Shown here piece by piece: positions 25,368-36,274 of a DNA stretch of 64,000 bases (positions within the stretch are counted from its first letter, which is position 1; every line of letters starts with the position of its first letter). The translations under genes were made by a program, and so were the position numbers. A model generated the notes under the pieces. The model worked only from the letters and a program-made list of their open reading frames with translations. It did no database searches and was not told where the DNA came from. The stretch comes from Cycloclasticus sp. symbiont of Bathymodiolus heckerae (lineage in GTDB: Bacteria; Pseudomonadota; Gammaproteobacteria; Methylococcales; Cycloclasticaceae). Location: positions 1 through 64,000 of the forward strand of contig LWTL01000116.1 in NCBI GenBank assembly GCA_002101235.1, in the 5' to 3' direction.

Positions 25368-26108
25368 GTGAAAGCACAAAAGCTATATGAGAGTAAGGAC
25401 CATGCGTGGATTGTTTTTGGGCGTGATGTTGATAAGCCTGATGCGATTATTGATACCAATCAATATATGGTGGTGAGCAAAGACAATGCTTTGTTGATGG
25501 ACCCAGGCGGCATTGAATTATTTTCGGCGATGCTGTCGGCGGTCATTAAAGAAGTGCCTGCGAATAAGATTACACACTTATTCGCTTCACACCAAGACCC
25601 AGATATTATTTCTTCGCTAGGGCTTTGGGATTTGGCGCTAACAGAATCAACGCTTCATTCCCCGTGGTTGTGGGAAGGTTTTATTCGCCACTTTGGGATG
25701 CAAAATATCAAATACGACGGCATACCGGATGAAGGAAGCAGATTGAAGTTAGACGATGTAAGTTTGGAGTTTATTCCTGCGCATTACTTGCATTCGTCAG
25801 GTAATTTTAATGTGTACGACCCTAAGGCGAAAATCTTAATGTCGGGCGATATCGGGGCTGCATTAGAAGAGGCTGATGCGCCGATGTTTGTGGAAGATTT
25901 TGATGGACACGTGCAAAAAATGAAAATGTTCCATCAGCGATGGATGCCATCTAATAAAGCAAAGAATGATTGGGTGCGGCGTGTGCGTGCATTAGATATA
26001 GAAATGATGTGTCCACAGCATGGCCGTATTTTCAAAGGCGATGATGTGAAGAGATTTCTGGATTGGTTTGAAGCATTAGAAGTTGGTTTAACCATGGATA
26101 AGCACTAA
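25368..26108 (+). CDS. ODP-type metallo-beta-lactamase-fold protein, probable di-iron oxygen sensor
   Basis: A 246-residue MBL-fold protein with GTG start. It lacks the usual HxHxDH; the corresponding segment is SHQDPD with His75, Asp77 and Asp79. Other likely metal ligands are His142 (LHSSGNFNVYDP), Asp161 (MSGDIGAAL) and His218 (CPQHGRIF). This resembles the stand-alone flavodiiron-like ODP proteins. An ODP in Treponema denticola was shown to bind di-iron and oxygen and to act in chemotaxis with CheA. Here it lies directly before the cheA operon, supporting an oxygen- or redox-sensing role. No flavodoxin domain is attached, so reductase activity is unlikely. Confidence 0.82.
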   Translation: MKAQKLYESKDHAWIVFGRDVDKPDAIIDTNQYMVVSKDNALLMDPGGIELFSAMLSAVIKEVPANKITHLFASHQDPDIISSLGLWDLALTESTLHSPWLWEGFIRHFGMQNIKYDGIPDEGSRLKLDDVSLEFIPAHYLHSSGNFNVYDPKAKILMSGDIGAALEEADAPMFVEDFDGHVQKMKMFHQRWMPSNKAKNDWVRRVRALDIEMMCPQHGRIFKGDDVKRFLDWFEALEVGLTMDKH

Positions 26109-26316: not shown

Positions 26317-26580
26317 ATGGATATAAAACTTCAAAACCAGTTGGGTATACAGGTGGTTAGTGACTTGAAAGCAGAGTTAGAGTCTGCCGTGGCCGCTGGA
26401 GATAGTGTGGTGTTGGACGCATCGGAAGTGGAAAGCGTAGATACAGCAGGGTTGCAATTATTAGTTGCTTTTGTGCAGCATGCGGCGTTGAAAAAGTGTG
26501 AATTTGAGTGGCGCGCGCCAAGCGACGCGTTTCTTGAAATAGCGAAATTAATGGGACTGTCTGACGCGTTACAAGTGTAA
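26317..26580 (+). CDS. STAS-domain protein of the chemosensory operon
   Basis: An 87-residue STAS domain, first gene of the operon. The conserved loop reads VESVDTAGLQLL, so the usual phospho-accepting Ser is Thr43 here. Small STAS proteins open several chemosensory operons, where their role is not settled. It may exchange with the HsbR-like kinase encoded 2 kb away or be an array component. The start is ATG 26317; no strong ribosome-binding site is visible (TCGTAAATT). cheY follows after 59 bases. Confidence 0.85.
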   Translation: MDIKLQNQLGIQVVSDLKAELESAVAAGDSVVLDASEVESVDTAGLQLLVAFVQHAALKKCEFEWRAPSDAFLEIAKLMGLSDALQV

Positions 26581-26639: not shown

Positions 26640-27002
26640 ATGGCTCGAATACTTGTAGTGGATGACTCCGCTTCAATGCGCCAAATGGTAACGTTTACCT
26701 TGAAAGGCGATGGGCATGAAGTAGTTGAAGCAGAAGACGGGGTGGTGGCGCTGGCATGTGCTAAAGCGGATAGTTTTCAAGCGGTTATTACGGACGTTAA
26801 CATGCCGAATATGGATGGTATTACGTTAACAAGAGAGCTACGTGCGCTGCCTAATTATCGTTTCATTCCTATTTTAACGCTAACGACAGAAGCATCGACA
26901 GAGAAAAAGATGGCAGGTAAAGCGGCGGGTGCGACGGGCTGGTTGGTGAAGCCATTTAATCCAGATCAGCTTCTTGCGACTGTAAAAAAAGTATTGGGGT
27001 AA
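26640..27002 (+). CDS. cheY: CheY response regulator
   Basis: Single receiver domain of 120 residues that carries phosphate from CheA to its target. The acidic pocket VVDDS (Asp8, Asp9), phospho-acceptor Asp52 (TDVNMPNMDG), switch Thr in LTLTTE near residue 83 and Lys in VKPFNP near 103 are all present. AAAGGGG lies nine bases before the ATG. It precedes cheA by four bases. Confidence 0.95.
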   Translation: MARILVVDDSASMRQMVTFTLKGDGHEVVEAEDGVVALACAKADSFQAVITDVNMPNMDGITLTRELRALPNYRFIPILTLTTEASTEKKMAGKAAGATGWLVKPFNPDQLLATVKKVLG

Positions 27003-27006
27003 GGTT

Positions 27007-28185
27007 ATGTCTATTGATATGTCGCAATTTCATGAAGCTTTTTTTGAGGAAAGTTTTGAAGGCCTAGAAATCATGGAGTCCGAGTTATTGGATCTTGATG
27101 TAGGTGAAGGCGATGTAGAAATAATCAATACTATTTTCCGTGCGGCGCACTCAATTAAAGGCGGTGCTGGAACGTTTGGTTTTATGAATGTGTCAGAATT
27201 CACCCACGTGATGGAAACATTGCTGGATGAAATGCGTGATGGCTCAAGAGAGGTAACGCAGTTTGCGGTTGATTCGTTGTTGCAATCGGTTGATGTTTTG
27301 AGAACGATGCTGGAAGCAGCAAGAGACAAGACGGATGTAGATGAGGTGATGGTTGCAGAACGCTACGCTGTACTTGAAGGGATATTAAAAAGCGAAGGCG
27401 ATGATGAAGGTGCGACTGATGAGCCTGAGAAAACAGGTGGTGAGCAAAGTTGGAAGATAGATTTCGCACCGCACCCTGATTTACTAATGGCGGGTAATAA
27501 CCCTGTCCGCATGTTTAAGGCATTGCAAGAGCTAGGGGAATTAAGCGCGGTTGCCAATTTAGATAAAATGCAGCCGTTCACAGAAGCAACCCCCGAAGAT
27601 TTATATTTAGCGTGGGAACTAACATTAACAGGCGATGTTTCGGAAGCGGATATTGCTGAGGTCTTTGAATGGGTTGAAGACGAGTGTGACTTAGCGATTA
27701 CGTCGCTGGGTGGGGAAAATGAGGCGGTTTCGGAACCAGTTCCTGCTCCAGCACAACAAGCCGTAGCGCCTACAGCTGCTCCGGTAGCGGCTGTTAAAGC
27801 AAAAGCGCCATCCAAACCCAAACCCAAACCTAAGAAAGCGCCTGAAGCTGCGTCTATTCGTGTGGGTATCGATAAGGTGGATGAAATTATCAACTTAGTG
27901 GGTGAGTTAGTGATCACTCAATCCATGTTAGATCAGGCAGGCGAAGATTTAGAGGCTATCGCTGATAGTGCGTCGGGTGATGACAGCGAGTCGAAAAAAG
28001 CAAATGCTGAAATTTTGTTGCGGTTAAGCAAAGGACTGGCCCAATTAGAGCGCAATACACGTGAGTTACAGGAAGGGGTGATGCGTATTCGCATGCTTCC
28101 CATCAGTTTTGTATTTAGCCGAATGCCAAGGTTGGTTCATGATTTATCAAGCAAGCTTAATAAGAAAATTGAATTAGTCGTTTAG
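27007..28185 (+). CDS. cheA: CheA histidine kinase, N-terminal part (interrupted by TAG)
   Basis: First 392 codons of a CheA. It has the phosphotransfer domain with His48 (FRAAHSIKGGAGTFGF), an acidic linker with a second folded segment at about 150-240 in the place of P2, a Pro/Lys-rich linker, and the P3 dimerisation helices (ASIRVGIDKVDEIINLVGELV) up to SKLNKKIELVV. Reading stops at TAG 28183-28185. The same frame continues without any other defect through the kinase and CheW-like domains to 29088. The codon is where other CheA proteins have a polar residue such as Glu or Gln, one substitution from TAG. As it stands this product would lack all catalytic residues. Confidence 0.9.
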   Translation: MSIDMSQFHEAFFEESFEGLEIMESELLDLDVGEGDVEIINTIFRAAHSIKGGAGTFGFMNVSEFTHVMETLLDEMRDGSREVTQFAVDSLLQSVDVLRTMLEAARDKTDVDEVMVAERYAVLEGILKSEGDDEGATDEPEKTGGEQSWKIDFAPHPDLLMAGNNPVRMFKALQELGELSAVANLDKMQPFTEATPEDLYLAWELTLTGDVSEADIAEVFEWVEDECDLAITSLGGENEAVSEPVPAPAQQAVAPTAAPVAAVKAKAPSKPKPKPKKAPEAASIRVGIDKVDEIINLVGELVITQSMLDQAGEDLEAIADSASGDDSESKKANAEILLRLSKGLAQLERNTRELQEGVMRIRMLPISFVFSRMPRLVHDLSSKLNKKIELVV

Positions 28186-28212
28186 GGTGAGGAAACAGAG
28201 CTAGATAAAACG

Positions 28213-29088
28213 GTGATGGAGAATATTGGTGACCCCATGGTTCATCTGGTCAGAAATGCGTTAGATCACGGTGTTGAAACGCCAGATATCAGGGTCGCTG
28301 CCGGCAAGCCTGAAATGGGCACGTTGAATTTAAATGCCTTCCACCAAGGTGGAAACATCATCATAGAAATTAAAGATGATGGTGCGGGCGTCAATAAAGC
28401 AAAAGTTCTGGCTAAGGCGATAGAAAAAGGCTTGGTGTCAGAAGATGATGATTTAAGTGATCACGATATTAATAACCTTATCTTTGCCCCAGGCTTTTCA
28501 ACCGCGGATGTTGTGAGCGATGTATCAGGTCGTGGTGTGGGTATGGATGTGGTTAAAACCAGTATCACTAAGTTGGGCGGCACTGTTTCGGTTGCATCAG
28601 AAGAGGGCAAAGGTTCTACTTTTACCATTCGCCTCCCCTTAACACTAGCCATTTTAGATGGTCAATTGGTAACGGTTGGCAACGAATCATATGTTATTCC
28701 GCTTATTACCATTATTGAATCGTTGCAGGTTGATCGTAAGTACATTAATCAGGTGGCTGGTAAAGCAGAAGTTTATAAATTACGCGAACACTATATTCCC
28801 ATTATTAGGTCCCGTGCGGTCTTCGGTTTAAAAGATGATAGGCGTGATTTGCATGATGCGCTGATGGTGGTCGTTGAAGTAGATGGCGCGCCTGCTGGTA
28901 TTATTGTGGATGACTTGCAAGGGCAGCAACAAGTTGTGATTAAAAGCTTAGAAACGAACTATAGAAAAGTAGAAACGATGTCGGGAGCGACTATTTTAGG
29001 CGACGGAACGGTTGCGCTTATTTGGGATGTTAATGGCATGGTGAATGTGCATAAGCGAAAATTAAATAGTAACGCCATCAAGGCTTAG
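28213..29088 (+). CDS. cheA: CheA histidine kinase, C-terminal part (catalytic and CheW-like domains)
   Basis: Same frame as the preceding part, only 27 bases after its TAG. Homology starts at 28186 (GEETELDKT); the first ATG is at 28213. It contains the N box HLVRNALDHG, G1 IKDDGAGVN, the F box FAPGFSTA and G2 SGRGVGMDVVK of the ATPase domain, then the P5 CheW-like domain from about 28650 (ILDGQLVTVGNESYVIPL) to HKRKLN. No good ribosome-binding site lies within ten bases of the ATG (the nearest GAGG is about 20 upstream), so independent translation is doubtful. A 692-residue CheA results if the TAG is read through or is an error. Confidence 0.88.
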   Translation: MMENIGDPMVHLVRNALDHGVETPDIRVAAGKPEMGTLNLNAFHQGGNIIIEIKDDGAGVNKAKVLAKAIEKGLVSEDDDLSDHDINNLIFAPGFSTADVVSDVSGRGVGMDVVKTSITKLGGTVSVASEEGKGSTFTIRLPLTLAILDGQLVTVGNESYVIPLITIIESLQVDRKYINQVAGKAEVYKLREHYIPIIRSRAVFGLKDDRRDLHDALMVVVEVDGAPAGIIVDDLQGQQQVVIKSLETNYRKVETMSGATILGDGTVALIWDVNGMVNVHKRKLNSNAIKA

Positions 29089-29135: not shown

Positions 29136-29672
29136 ATGAGTACCTCAGACCCAACTAGCGGCGATATCGTCTCAAGTGAGAACATGAATCAGAATCAATA
29201 TCTAACCTTTTTGCTAGGGGAAGAGGAATATGGTGTTGATATATTAAGGGTTCAAGAAATTAGAGGCTGGGACTCAGTAACGACTATTCCCAATTCGCCT
29301 GCGTTTATTAAAGGTGTTATTAACTTGCGTGGCACGATTGTGTCCATCTTGGATTTACGTGAACGATTCGGTATAGAAAGTGTTGAATACGATGACTTAA
29401 CTGTCGTAGTGGTTCTTCGTGTTAAAAGTGAAGACAGCGACAAAGACCGCATTATGGGCGTGGTTGTGGATGCGGTTTCTGAGGTGTACCACATTAGTGA
29501 AGAGGAGCTAAAAGATGCACCGGATCTAGGTTATGCCATCAATATGGACTATATGAAAGGCATGGCAACCATTGATGACAAGATGATTATTGTATTAGAT
29601 ATCGACCACCTTATGAGTTTGAAGGATATCGATGCGATGGAAAAATCAGGCAAAGCATTAACGGAGGACTAA
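29136..29672 (+). CDS. cheW: CheW coupling protein
   Basis: Adaptor that joins receptors to CheA. The 178-residue product has the CheW fold: QYLTFLLGEEEYGVDILRVQEI at about 22-43, FIKGVINLRGTIVSILDLRERF with the conserved NLRG, VVDAVSEVYHI and MIIVLDIDHLM. The N-terminal 20 residues are a Ser/Asn-rich extension. AGGAG precedes the ATG. The ParA-like gene starts six bases after the stop. Confidence 0.94.
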   Translation: MSTSDPTSGDIVSSENMNQNQYLTFLLGEEEYGVDILRVQEIRGWDSVTTIPNSPAFIKGVINLRGTIVSILDLRERFGIESVEYDDLTVVVVLRVKSEDSDKDRIMGVVVDAVSEVYHISEEELKDAPDLGYAINMDYMKGMATIDDKMIIVLDIDHLMSLKDIDAMEKSGKALTED

Positions 29673-29678
29673 TTCGGC

Positions 29679-30425
29679 ATGCGTACTTTTGCGGTTTTAA
29701 ATCAAAAAGGTGGCGTGGGTAAAACCACAACAGCTATTAATTTAGCGCATGCAATGGCGCTGCGCGGACATAAAGTGACCGCAATTGATATGGACCCGCA
29801 GAACCACTTAACAGCTGGCTTGGGTGAAGAGCAGCATCCGCAGTCGGGTATTGACGAGGTATTGCTTGGCGAATCGACCTTCGCCGAAATGCGTATAAAT
29901 GCACGCGAAAATTTAAAATTAATGCCAGCAGGAACACGGTTGTCAGAAGTTGAGCAAAGCGTACGTGGCATTAAAGGCGGTCACTTGTTGGCTGATGAGG
30001 TTAAAAAGCTACGGCAAGACTTCGTGTTTATAGATTGTCCGCCTTCATCAGGTATTTTATCCATGAACGCTATTTTGGCCGCTAAAGAGATCATTATTCC
30101 TGTGTCGAGTGATTACTTGGCATTGCATGGGATGTCCCGTTTGATGGGGATTCTTAAACATGTTGAAGGTCGTTTAAATCATAAAATGAAAGTATGGGTC
30201 GTATTGACTCGCTTTCATAGTCGTCGACGTTTGTCGAATGAAGTTCGAGATAAATTAGTCAGTTATTTTACAGACAGTGTATTGGTAACGCCTGTTCGGG
30301 AGGCTGTTGCTTTAGCGGAGAGCCCAAGTTATGGGCAGACAATTTTTGAATACCAAAAACGCAGTAATGGAGCGATTGATTACAGCAACCTAGCGGAAGA
30401 TTTGCTAAACGGGAGAACGTTATGA
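29679..30425 (+). CDS. ParA/MinD-like ATPase of the chemosensory operon
   Basis: A 248-residue ParA-type ATPase with deviant Walker A KGGVGKTT at 10-17, Walker A' IDMDPQNHL at 37-45 and Walker B VFIDCPPS near 112-119. No parB gene lies beside it. ParA homologues in chemosensory operons (PpfA of Rhodobacter, ParC of Vibrio) position arrays inside the cell; the operon context makes that role likely. Its stop overlaps the start of a 55-residue basic protein by ATGA, which suggests a stoichiometric partner. Confidence 0.9.
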   Translation: MRTFAVLNQKGGVGKTTTAINLAHAMALRGHKVTAIDMDPQNHLTAGLGEEQHPQSGIDEVLLGESTFAEMRINARENLKLMPAGTRLSEVEQSVRGIKGGHLLADEVKKLRQDFVFIDCPPSSGILSMNAILAAKEIIIPVSSDYLALHGMSRLMGILKHVEGRLNHKMKVWVVLTRFHSRRRLSNEVRDKLVSYFTDSVLVTPVREAVALAESPSYGQTIFEYQKRSNGAIDYSNLAEDLLNGRTL

Positions 30426-30607: not shown

Positions 30608-33562
30608 ATGACGGATAAGAAGGGTAAAAAAGATAAGTCGTTGGGATTTGACCCTTTGGCTTGGATGGATGACGATGCCACGGCAGATGAGGCGCCTAAG
30701 CCGAAGCCAACGGTTAAAAAAGTTAAGCCTAAAGTAGCGGCCAAAGCAAAGGTGGTTAAAAAGGGAAAGGTTAAGCCATATGTGTCTGAATTAGGCTTAG
30801 ATGTTGAAACGCTAGAAAGCAGTTTTGTGTTATTAGCGCCTGTTGCAGAGGACATGATTAACCAGTTCTATACCAATTTATTTGAGCAGTACCCCGGCGT
30901 TATCCCCTTATTTGAGAACACGACTCAAAAGCAGCAAGTCCAAAAGTTGTTAGGGGCCATTAAGTTAACGATAGAAAACTTACGTAACCCCGATAAGCTC
31001 GTGCCTGTTTTAGTGGCGATGGGTGAACGGCATCAAGGATATGGGGCAGAAGCGGCGCATTATCAAGCTGTGGCAGAAACCTTATTAGGCGTTATGGAAG
31101 AATACGCCGGAGACAAATGGACGCAACAAATAAATGACGCTTGGACGGGAGCGTTAAACCTAATCGCAGACACTATGTTGGGCGCATACAAAAAAGAAGA
31201 GGGCAGTGCAATGAGTAAAGAACAATTAGCAGAGCTAAAGTATTTAAAGGCAGCAGTACAAGGTGCGCAAACTAACCTCATGATGTGTGATGCTGATTTA
31301 AACATCACCTATGCGAATGATGCGGTGATAGACATGCTACAAAATCGTGTTGATGTATTGCGCGAAATTTGGCCAAGCATAGACCCGCAAAATCTCATTG
31401 GTGAGTGCATTGATAGCTTCCATAAAAATCCAGCACATCAACGTGCATTACTAGCCGATAAAAATCGTTTGCCAGCAGAGGCTGAAATTCAGCTAGGCGA
31501 TATAACGTTTAAAGTTAAGGCCTCGTTCGTAGAGGGCGAGGATGGTAACTACGCAGGCAACATGGTTGAGTGGCAAGACTTAACTGAGCAAAAAGTAAAA
31601 GAGCTCGAAGTGGCGCGTTTGCAATCAGCCGTTGATAGCGCACAAACTAACTTGATGATGTGTGATGCCGACTTAAACATTACATACGCCAACGAGGCAG
31701 TTATTGGAATGCTGGCGCATCGTGTGAATGAATTGCGTACTATTTGGCCGGGTATGGATCCAGAGAATCTTATCGGAACATGTATTGACGGGTTTCACAA
31801 AAACCCAGCGCATCAGCGAGCTTTATTGTCAGACAAATCACGTTTGCCAGCGCAAGCTGAGATTGAGGTGGCTGGCTTAACATTTTCCGTAAACGCAAGT
31901 TACATAGAAAGCCCCGACGGTGAGTACATGGGTAATATGGTTGAGTGGCAAGATTTAACCGAGCAAAAAGAAAAAGAACGTGAAGTGGCGCGTTTACAAT
32001 CAGGGCTTGATAGCGCAGAAACAAATATCATGATGTGTGATAACGACTTGAATATTATTTACGCCAATGATGCGGTGGTGGCTATGTTGCAAAAGCGCGT
32101 GCATGAGTTACGTGAGATTTGGCCAACGCTTGATCCGCAAAACTTAATTGGTGCGTGTATTGATGGTTTCCATAAAAACCCAGCACATCAGAGGGCGTTG
32201 TTATCGGATAAATCGCGTTTACCGGCGAAAGCAGAAATTAATGTAGCAGGCTTAACATTTTCCGTAAATGCGAGTTACATAGAAAGCCCAGATGGTGAGT
32301 ACATGGGCAATATGGTTGAGTGGCAAGATTTAACTGAAGAAAAAGATGCCGAGAGTCAAATACAACGAATTATTGCCGCAGCGGCAGCAGGGCAGTTAGA
32401 TGAGCGAATTGATCACGCCACATACAATGGCGGCATAAAGTCTATAGCAGAAGGGGTTAATGACTTGGTTGACACTTTTGCGGCGCCTATTCGTTCTGTT
32501 GCGGGTGTGATGGATGAGTTGTCAAAAGGTAACTTAGATATCAGAGCCGATGGGGAATACAGTGGTGAACTCGAAGAGTTAATGCGCTCGGTCAATGCAA
32601 CTATTGATAAGTTACAAGAGTCGATTAGCTCAATCAGTACCGCCTCTAGCAATATCAGCGTAGCGACTAGTGAAATTGCAACAGGTAATGCGGACTTGAG
32701 TAATAGAACTGAGCAGCAAGCATCTGAGCTTGAGGAAACAGCGGCCAGTGTTGAAGAGTTAACCAGCACCGTTCAACAAAGTGCGGCAAACTCAAAACGC
32801 GCAAACGATCTAGCAGAAGGTGCGAGCGCGCAGGCTGAAAAAGGCGGTAATGTTGTGAAAGAGGCAGTGGTCGCTATGAGTGAAATCAACTCAGCGAGTA
32901 AGAAAATTGCCGACATTATTGGTGTGATTGATGAGATAGCATTCCAAACAAACTTGTTAGCGTTGAATGCGGCTGTTGAAGCGGCCAGAGCGGGTGAACA
33001 AGGGCGTGGCTTTGCAGTTGTGGCTAGTGAGGTAAGGAACTTAGCGCAACGAAGTGCGGGCGCAGCCAAAGAAATTAAACAGCTAATTAATGACAGTGTT
33101 GAGAAGGTAAGTGAAGGTAGCAAATTAGTCGATGAGTCGGGTGATATGTTGGCCCAAATTGTCACATCAGTACAAGAAGTGAGTGGGTTAATTGCAGAGA
33201 TCGCATCTGCGAGTGCAGAGCAAGCGGCAGGTATTGAGCAAGTTAATTCAGCGGTGACAAATTTGGATTCGGTTACACAACAAAATGCTGCTCTAGTTGA
33301 AGAAGCATCGGCCGCGGCAATGTCGTTGCAAGATCAAGCCGGTACGTTAGATACGGCAACATCGTTTTTTACACTTCCCGCGACGATGGTGTCTGTAGCT
33401 CCAGCGCCAAGAGCTCCAACAGCAGCTTTTGCTCCAGCGGCGGCGCCAAGACCAGCGCCAGTAAGACCTGCGGTTGCCCGAGCCCCAGCCCCAGCCCCAG
33501 CCGCCGCAAGACCAGCGCCAATACGTCCTGCAGCAGATGATGATGAATGGGATGAGTTCTAG
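30608..33562 (+). CDS. globin-coupled chemoreceptor with three tandem PAS repeats
   Basis: A 984-residue soluble methyl-accepting protein. Order: basic disordered tail with the motif [12 protein letters not shown] at 12-23; globin domain about 63-200 with probable proximal His142 (GERHQGYG); three PAS-like units of exactly 125 residues each from about residue 211 to 585 (each with MMCDxDLNIxYAN and [10 protein letters not shown]); a HAMP-like stretch with [13 protein letters not shown]; and the signalling domain with [21 protein letters not shown]. After a Pro/Ala linker the last residues are EWDEF, which fits the xWxxF tether for CheR/CheB. There is no membrane segment, so it would sit in a cytoplasmic array. 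The globin suggests oxygen or haem-gas sensing. Confidence 0.93.
31251..32350 (+). repeat. three tandem 375-bp PAS-encoding repeats
   Basis: Equivalent codons fall at 31268, 31643 and 32018, that is, exactly 375 bases apart twice. Units 2 and 3 are nearly identical in protein sequence over long stretches (for example [20 protein letters not shown] in both). This indicates duplication with no length change since. Confidence 0.9.
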
Positions 33563-33690: not shown

Positions 33691-34557
33691 ATGGAGAGGG
33701 AAGTGGTTGCACCGATAAAGCCCGATAAAAAGAGGGAGTTTGAATTTACTGCGAAGGCATTTGATCAAATACGTTCGCTAGTAAAAGAGAAAACAGGCAT
33801 TGTTCTTTCTGATGGAAAACAAGATATGGTATATGGCCGGTTAACACGCCGCTTGCGCGCGCTGGATCTACCGAATTTTGAGAGCTATATCCAAATTGTT
33901 AAAAGTGGACATGAAGAAGAACTCATTAACTTGGTTAATGCGATTACGACAAACTTAACGTCATTTTTTAGAGAAGAGCACCATTTTGGTTATTTGAGAA
34001 ATACAGTGTTTCCTGCGTTGATGGAGAAAAATGCAGCAACGCGAAAAATTAGAATTTGGAGCGCAGGTTGTTCAACAGGTGAAGAGCCATACAGTATCGC
34101 CATGACGGTACGAGAGTTTTTCCCTTGGGATAGTGACTGGGATGTAAAAATTATCGCAACCGACTTAGACTCTAATGTGGTCAATACGGGAAAAAAAGGC
34201 GTGTACCAGTTATCCCGTGTTGAAGGTGTATCAAACGAATATAAGAAGCGTTGGATGCGGCGCGGTAAGGGCGACAAGTCAGACTTTGTAAAAATGAATG
34301 CAGAGTTGCAAGATTTAATTACGTTTAAGCAATTAAATTTATTAGAAGGTTGGCCTTTAAAAGGGCCGGTGGATATTATTTTTTGCCGTAATGTGGTGAT
34401 TTATTTCGACAAAGATACGCAGCGAGTGTTGTTCGATCGCTATGCGGATATGTTGGCGCCTGATGGGCATTTATTTATAGGGCATTCTGAGAACATGTTC
34501 AATGTTTGTGACCGGTTTGAGTCGTTAGGCCATACCATTTACGCAAAGAAGTTTTAA
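33691..34557 (+). CDS. cheR: CheR chemoreceptor glutamate methyltransferase
   Basis: SAM-dependent enzyme that methylates receptor glutamates for adaptation. The 288-residue protein has the N-terminal helical domain (VYGRLTRRLRAL near 45-58), TTNLTSFFREEHHF, the SAM-binding WSAGCSTGEEPYSIAM near residues 115-130 and DIIFCRNVVIYFDK. The ATG at 33691 follows AAAAGGA. It starts the adaptation part of the locus, cheR-cheD-cheB. Confidence 0.95.
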   Translation: MEREVVAPIKPDKKREFEFTAKAFDQIRSLVKEKTGIVLSDGKQDMVYGRLTRRLRALDLPNFESYIQIVKSGHEEELINLVNAITTNLTSFFREEHHFGYLRNTVFPALMEKNAATRKIRIWSAGCSTGEEPYSIAMTVREFFPWDSDWDVKIIATDLDSNVVNTGKKGVYQLSRVEGVSNEYKKRWMRRGKGDKSDFVKMNAELQDLITFKQLNLLEGWPLKGPVDIIFCRNVVIYFDKDTQRVLFDRYADMLAPDGHLFIGHSENMFNVCDRFESLGHTIYAKKF

Positions 34558-34561
34558 TTAG

Positions 34562-35209
34562 GTGGCGGTTACGAGTATAAAACCAGCGCATATGCCTGAG
34601 GCATTGCCTGGATTTGAGGATATAAATCGTTATTGGGATACAAGCCATGGGCATTATTCGGCAAAAATTTTGCCCGGACAGTATTACGTTAGTCAAAATG
34701 ATGAGTTGATTGCCACTGTGTTAGGTTCGTGTATTTCCGTTTGTGCATATGACCGAGTTGCGGGTATTGGTGGCATGAATCACTTTATGTTGCCGCTGTA
34801 TACAGATAGTCATAAGGCGGCATGGGGTCAAACGGTGATTAGTGCGGAAACTCGATACGGTAACTTTGCGATGGAGCACATGATTAATGACATTATCAAA
34901 CATGGCGGTGTTAAAAGTCGTTTAGAGATAAAGGTTATTGGTGGTGGCAGGGTCATGGAAAAGATGACAGATGTTGGTTTAAGAAATATTTCATTTATTT
35001 ACGACTATATTGCCAATGAACGGCTGAAACTAGTGTCGGAAGATGTGGGGGATAAGTACCCGCGCAAAGTATTGTTTCATGTAAAGACAGGGAAAGTTAA
35101 AGTGAGAAAATTGAGGAAAGTAAATAACTCGACATTACTTCAACGTGATGAAGAGTACATCAGTAAGCTTAATAGCTCGGAATTGGACGGGTCAGTTGAC
35201 CTGTTTTAG
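34562..35209 (+). CDS. cheD: CheD chemoreceptor glutamine deamidase
   Basis: Deamidates receptor glutamines to create methylation sites. The 215-residue protein has the catalytic Cys57 in TVLGSCISVCAYD and His74 in GGMNHFMLP, with the usual glycine-rich KVIGGGRVM later on. GTG start four bases after the cheR stop, with AATTAGG as its ribosome-binding site. It carries a C-terminal extension of about 40 residues beyond the core, ending GSVDLF, a terminal D-L-F shared with the second receptor of this locus. Confidence 0.94.
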   Translation: MAVTSIKPAHMPEALPGFEDINRYWDTSHGHYSAKILPGQYYVSQNDELIATVLGSCISVCAYDRVAGIGGMNHFMLPLYTDSHKAAWGQTVISAETRYGNFAMEHMINDIIKHGGVKSRLEIKVIGGGRVMEKMTDVGLRNISFIYDYIANERLKLVSEDVGDKYPRKVLFHVKTGKVKVRKLRKVNNSTLLQRDEEYISKLNSSELDGSVDLF

Positions 35210-35227: not shown

Positions 35228-36274
35228 ATGGTAACAGGTAAAAAAATACGCTTATTGATCGTGGACGATTCGGCTATTGTTCGACAGGTGCTGACGGAAA
35301 TTTTCTCAGCAACGGATGACATCGAAGTTGTGGGTACAGCAATAGACCCTTTGATTGCTAGAGATAAAATTAAGGTGCTACGGCCCGATGTTTTAACGTT
35401 AGATATTGAGATGCCAAGAATGGACGGTATTACGTTTCTTGGTAATTTGATGCGCCTTCGCCCTATGCCGGTGGTGATGATTTCAACACTCACCGAGAAG
35501 GGCGCGGAGGTAACATTTAAGGCTTTAGAGCTTGGTGCTGTAGACTTTGTTGCCAAGCCAAAGGTTAATATAAAAACAGAGTTGGCTAAATATTCAGCTG
35601 AGGTTTGTGACAAAGTTCGTACGGCTGCTAAGGCACGAATTCGTGGTGCAGATTTAGTAACAAGAAAAGCGGAGTCACAAAGGTTGGCGCCGGTTGTACG
35701 TAGAAATAACCGGCAGATTATAGCAATTGGTTCTTCTACAGGGGGTACTGAAGCGATAAAAGATATATTGGTGAAACTCCCTGTCGATTCGCCGCCTATC
35801 GTTATTACCCAACATATTCCAAAGTCATTCAGTGGGCCATTCGCTAGGCGATTGGACGGGATCTGTGATTTAACTGTTCATGAAGCGCAAACTGGGATGC
35901 TAATTGAGCCAGGTCATGTGTACGTTGCACCGGGTGATGGACATTTAATTATTATGAAGAGAGGCGCGCGTTATACCTGTGTGATTAATGATGGGCCACC
36001 AGTGAATAGACATAAGCCCTCGGTTGATGTGATGTTTCGTTCTTTGCTTGAATGTGCGGCAAAAGATGTGTTGGCTGTTATGCTTACGGGTATGGGTAAT
36101 GATGGCTCTGCCGGTATGTTGGAGTTATTACAAGCCGGCGCGAAAACGACTGCGCAAGATGAGGCTTCAAGCGTTGTATGGGGTATGCCCGGTAGCGCAG
36201 TTAAGTTGTCGGCTGTTCAGTCGATTATTTCATTAAGTAATATGGCTGAGCACTTAGTAGGCCAATATGAGTAA
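35228..36274 (+). CDS. cheB: CheB receptor methylesterase/deamidase
   Basis: Response regulator that removes receptor methyl groups when phosphorylated by CheA. The 348-residue product has a receiver (acidic VDDSA, phospho-acceptor Asp57 in TLDIEMPRMDG) and a methylesterase domain from about residue 160 with the catalytic triad elements GSSTGGTEA, TQHIPKSFSGPFA and GMGNDGSAG. It lies 18 bases after cheD. Confidence 0.95.
   Translation: MVTGKKIRLLIVDDSAIVRQVLTEIFSATDDIEVVGTAIDPLIARDKIKVLRPDVLTLDIEMPRMDGITFLGNLMRLRPMPVVMISTLTEKGAEVTFKALELGAVDFVAKPKVNIKTELAKYSAEVCDKVRTAAKARIRGADLVTRKAESQRLAPVVRRNNRQIIAIGSSTGGTEAIKDILVKLPVDSPPIVITQHIPKSFSGPFARRLDGICDLTVHEAQTGMLIEPGHVYVAPGDGHLIIMKRGARYTCVINDGPPVNRHKPSVDVMFRSLLECAAKDVLAVMLTGMGNDGSAGMLELLQAGAKTTAQDEASSVVWGMPGSAVKLSAVQSIISLSNMAEHLVGQYE

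Follow-up and report, generated by a model that had tools for sequence, protein, structure and literature searches.

The cheA gene of this Cycloclasticus symbiont is interrupted by a single in-frame TAG codon, and we propose, with a probability of about 0.6, that this stop is a nonsense mutation of very recent origin which abolishes the function of cheA, in a genome undergoing gene loss. The gene lies in a window of 64,000 bases (bases 1-64000 of the 83.7-kb contig C116) taken from a 2.13-Mb draft genome of 123 contigs. The H-kinase_dim domain was found once in the assembly, which makes this cheA the only CheA assembled; within the assembled sequence, no other CheA could thus take over.

When translated, the frame comprises 692 sense codons, interrupted by a TAG at codon 393 and closed by a terminal TAG; besides the internal stop, we observed no lesion at all. 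The original prediction, a CheA of about 692 residues complete but for a single in-frame TAG, is thus borne out. Pfam places Hpt and H-kinase_dim 5' of the stop and HATPase_c and CheW 3' of it. The domain order of a CheA histidine kinase (Hpt, H-kinase_dim, HATPase_c, CheW-like) is therefore recovered when one reads across the stop, and the continuous frame of such a kinase is broken at codon 393. The stop had also been placed at the start of the kinase domain, and this point has to be revised: the solved P4 constructs 1i58 and 1i5d start 34 residues before the stop, and in a structure model of P4 in which the stop was read as serine (mean pLDDT 88), it is the last residue of a strand following the first long helix. 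The phosphotransfer and dimerisation domains lie before the stop and HATPase_c after it, but the cut itself runs inside P4.

Table 1. Coordinates of the features of the cheA locus in the window
Feature	Position	Strand	Evidence
cheY, intact	26640..27002	+	
cheA frame, interrupted by one internal stop	27007..29088	+	translation, Pfam domains, G008/G009 orthologues
N-terminal 392 codons: Hpt (P1), linker/P2 region, H-kinase_dim (P3), first 34 residues of P4	27007..28182	+	
P4 kinase domain, with the stop at its 35th residue, at a strand end	28081..28644	+	solved constructs, model
Internal TAG stop, codon 393	28183..28185	+	translation; Ser codon in both sister species
C-terminal 300 codons: remaining P4 (HATPase_c) and P5 (CheW-like)	28186..29085	+	
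Closest in-frame starts past the stop (GTG 28213, ATG 28216), without ribosome-binding site	28213..28218	+	
cheW, intact	29136..29672	+	
ParA-like ATPase of the che cluster, intact	29679..30425	+	
Chemoreceptor with globin, three PAS repeats, HAMP and MCP signalling domain, intact	30608..33562	+	
cheR, intact	33691..34557	+	
cheD, intact	34562..35209	+	
cheB, intact	35228..36274	+	

The cheA of this che cluster is found in only 2 of the 17 other genomes examined for the genus, those of the sister species G008 and G009, whose proteins are 84% and 80% identical to ours, respectively. These two clusters display the same gene order as here and differ by the lack of a stop at the site: both cheA genes can be aligned with ours over their full length, and both carry a Ser codon at this position, a single substitution away from TAG. 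As had been claimed, the lesion is isolated between two conserved flanks, and it has the appearance of a recent nonsense mutation, absent from the close orthologues. The site is occupied by 15 residue types in 78 further homologues, Ser being the most frequent (11), and is thus unlikely to be a catalytic position. Other cheA matches containing stops were observed in G006, G010, G030, G023 and G029; in the first three of these genomes, the stops fall at the very end of the protein, and the G023 and G029 loci lie on the opposite strand.

Upstream of cheY are found genes for an ODP-family protein (25368-26108) and a STAS protein (26317-26580), which together with the globin receptor hint at an oxygen-sensing chemosensory cluster. 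The chemoreceptor itself contains tandem PAS units of about 375 bp each (31265-32346); alignment offsets suggest that G008 possesses two more units than are present here and G009 the same number.

The scenario we favor would begin, very recently and in this lineage, with one base substitution by which the Ser codon of cheA became TAG. Translation would then stop at codon 393 and produce a P1-P2-P3 fragment with a P4 stub and without the ATPase, and the 300 codons past the stop would be little translated, if at all. The locus would yield no kinase, CheY and CheB of the cluster would stay unphosphorylated, and the receptor array could not signal via this CheA. Such a loss would have been tolerated because motility or chemotaxis was already under weaker selection. 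We infer for this scenario that the TAG base is real in the organism and that the N-terminal fragment is inactive. It is favored by the stop itself, the sister Ser codon one step away, the intact neighbours and the cut in P4, as well as by the lack of a suppressor and of a start signal and by gene breakage elsewhere in the assembly, as detailed below.

The age of the stop can be approached through the private amino-acid changes of each lineage, G009 being the outgroup. Upstream of the stop, this lineage has accumulated 15 such changes and the G008 branch 23; downstream, the numbers are 6 and 12, respectively. cheA thus displays no excess of lineage-specific changes on either side of the stop. 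Since synonymous sites are saturated or nearly so, these counts, which are not raised, indicate that neutral decay has not extended beyond a small part of the branch. The stop would thus be either very young or an error, a statement that comes from the counts and not from a formal date. A recent change, a sequencing error and a fresh loss had all been put forward in the original prediction, and all three find support as possibilities. On the other hand, the lack of excess and the intact state of the rest of the che cluster argue against a nonsense loss, as they provide no independent evidence that selection on chemotaxis has been relaxed.

The main rival explanation holds that the assembly carries a wrong base at the TAG, or that a minor-strain variant was retained in the draft consensus, cheA being intact in the population. 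We consider this a possible explanation, to be held with limited confidence. It is in keeping with the draft state of the assembly and its 123 contigs, and with a lone lesion in a gene otherwise undamaged and under no relaxed selection. Lesion rates were estimated on sampled stretches of five contigs, 446 kb in length, by searching for stops flanked by coding sequence on both sides; this criterion superseded a hexamer coding scan, which also caught ordinary operon junctions. The search returned two candidates, the cheA TAG and a stop at C122:79449, and the latter, inspected by eye, is the point where a MiaB-like gene meets a PhoH-like one. The cheA TAG is thus the only stop between two coding halves in the 446 kb sampled, and a single lesion of this kind would also fit a consensus error. 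However, the site is 28 kb away from the closest contig end and lies in neither a repeat nor a homopolymer. Furthermore, comparison of the 84-kb contig with 64 ORFs of G008 and 61 of G009 revealed no frameshift, which argues for a good consensus quality.

The same comparison disclosed one further broken gene. A LOG-family (lysine decarboxylase-like) gene at 106-663 on the minus strand, intact in G008 and G009, contains an internal TGA (124-126) after which the homology stops, and it is cut off at positions 1-105 of the window by what is probably the end of an insertion sequence. This 105-base segment leads into the start of a transposase-like frame, and by eye it corresponds to the beginning of an IS3-like element. 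Identical or nearly identical copies are found on at least four other contigs (C107, C122, C105 and C110), mostly at their ends; on C122, the repeat cuts off an acyltransferase-like gene. A second element, with a Mutator-type transposase (PF00872), lies at C118:29706-30908, directly behind a truncated HDOD gene; it also occurs at the start of C115, where it abuts a decayed HDOD-type gene beside prmC, and its beginning is found at the right end of C116. Neither element showed up in the roughly 219 kb of G008 and G009 sequence searched. Gene loss elsewhere in this genome is thus indicated by genes that insertion sequences have disrupted and by a second nonsense codon. The search for further lesions, proposed earlier as a way to recognize plain decay, therefore gives a divided answer: cheA and its che neighbours bear none, but other genes have been broken by insertion sequences and point lesions. 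A parallel can be drawn with bacteria whose insertion sequences are expanding and whose genes become pseudogenes through nonsense mutations, for example the Enterovibrio symbionts of anglerfish (PMC6020299). The genomes of these symbionts are also about 2.1 Mb in size, with insertion sequences in genes, and with some genes broken but many still intact. The latter, however, contain hundreds of pseudogenes and have kept chemotaxis and motility, whereas lesions are few in our sample.

The assembly contains flagellin genes, intact flg, fliC and fliD genes, a CheV-type protein and five chemoreceptors, as well as hook-associated and rod genes named by eye. No real match was found in the assembly for FlhA, FlhB, FliP, FliM, FliA, CheZ and the second CheA of G008, and the region carrying the second CheA of the sister species is absent. 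Contig ends cut through the flg operon, and one also falls at the insertion sequence beside prmC, so that an assembly gap is possible. The absence of these flagellar and chemotaxis genes favors the nonsense loss if the cluster has been lost, but it may also result from an assembly or binning gap, which would count against it. A FadL-like gene on C102, considered as the right flank of the flagellar cluster, was rejected: it is only 59% alike, stands in a different gene context and is probably a paralogue.

One could also imagine that the stop is tolerated through read-through, a little full-length CheA being produced. Nearly any inserted amino acid would suit the site in view of the residue types accepted by the homologues, and both halves of cheA are still under purifying selection. 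However, RF1 (prfA) is present, all anticodons of the 35 tRNA genes found are ordinary and none is CUA, matches to PylS remain below the cut-off, and TAG terminates 17 of the 77 long ORFs of the contig, in addition to cheA itself. Neither a UAG-decoding tRNA nor a loss of RF1, either of which would mark a read-through gene, is thus observed, and the search for an amber suppressor suggested in the original prediction came back empty. The RNA downstream of the stop displays no unusual structure (z 0.42), and the sense codons of the sister species and of the 78 homologues mean that neither the stop nor a recoding signal is conserved. Measured rates of UAG read-through are about 0.01% in Pseudomonas putida and, in P. 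aeruginosa, 1 in 20,000 (PMC9481147); E. coli reporters gave a mean for TAG of 0.03% at 37 °C and of 0.8% at 25 °C (PMC11126739). We thus regard read-through as improbable. Its most elaborate form, in which basal amber read-through would keep a working array on trace amounts of full-length CheA and termination errors would set the kinase dose, seems to us highly improbable.

The idea of two cooperating polypeptides fares no better. A split CheA would require re-initiation right after the stop, for which an in-frame GTG and an in-frame ATG are available 10-11 codons downstream. Neither is preceded by a Shine-Dalgarno match, in contrast to cheA, cheW and the ParA-like gene, and none of the start codons past the stop is served by a usable ribosome-binding site; on this point, the original prediction was right. 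According to the P4 model, the cut after the first helix, in a strand, leaves neither fragment with a whole kinase domain, which makes a working split kinase unlikely; the second fragment also lacks the P3 dimerisation domain. CheA functions are spread over two reading frames in Rhodobacter sphaeroides (PMC3591291), and this provides a natural precedent. CheA3 and CheA4 are, however, separate proteins divided by whole domains, with P3 and P4 missing in their entirety from CheA3 and only P1 missing from CheA4, whereas here P4 is cut at its 35th residue and the second half has no start signal of its own. Cooperation between the two halves is thus very hard to envisage. Finally, that TAG would be a sense codon in this genome has nothing in its favor except the one codon, and the RF1 gene, the tRNA set, the lack of PylS above the cut-off and the routine use of TAG as a stop, including at the end of cheA, rule out such a recoding almost entirely.

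Among the papers we found, none reports a natural nonsense loss of cheA. If the base is real, the nonsense mutation would show a chemosensory kinase in the first step of its loss, while cheA is still free of other lesions. It would then illustrate an early stage of gene loss in a genome whose genes are already being broken by insertion sequences, and would call for no new mechanism.
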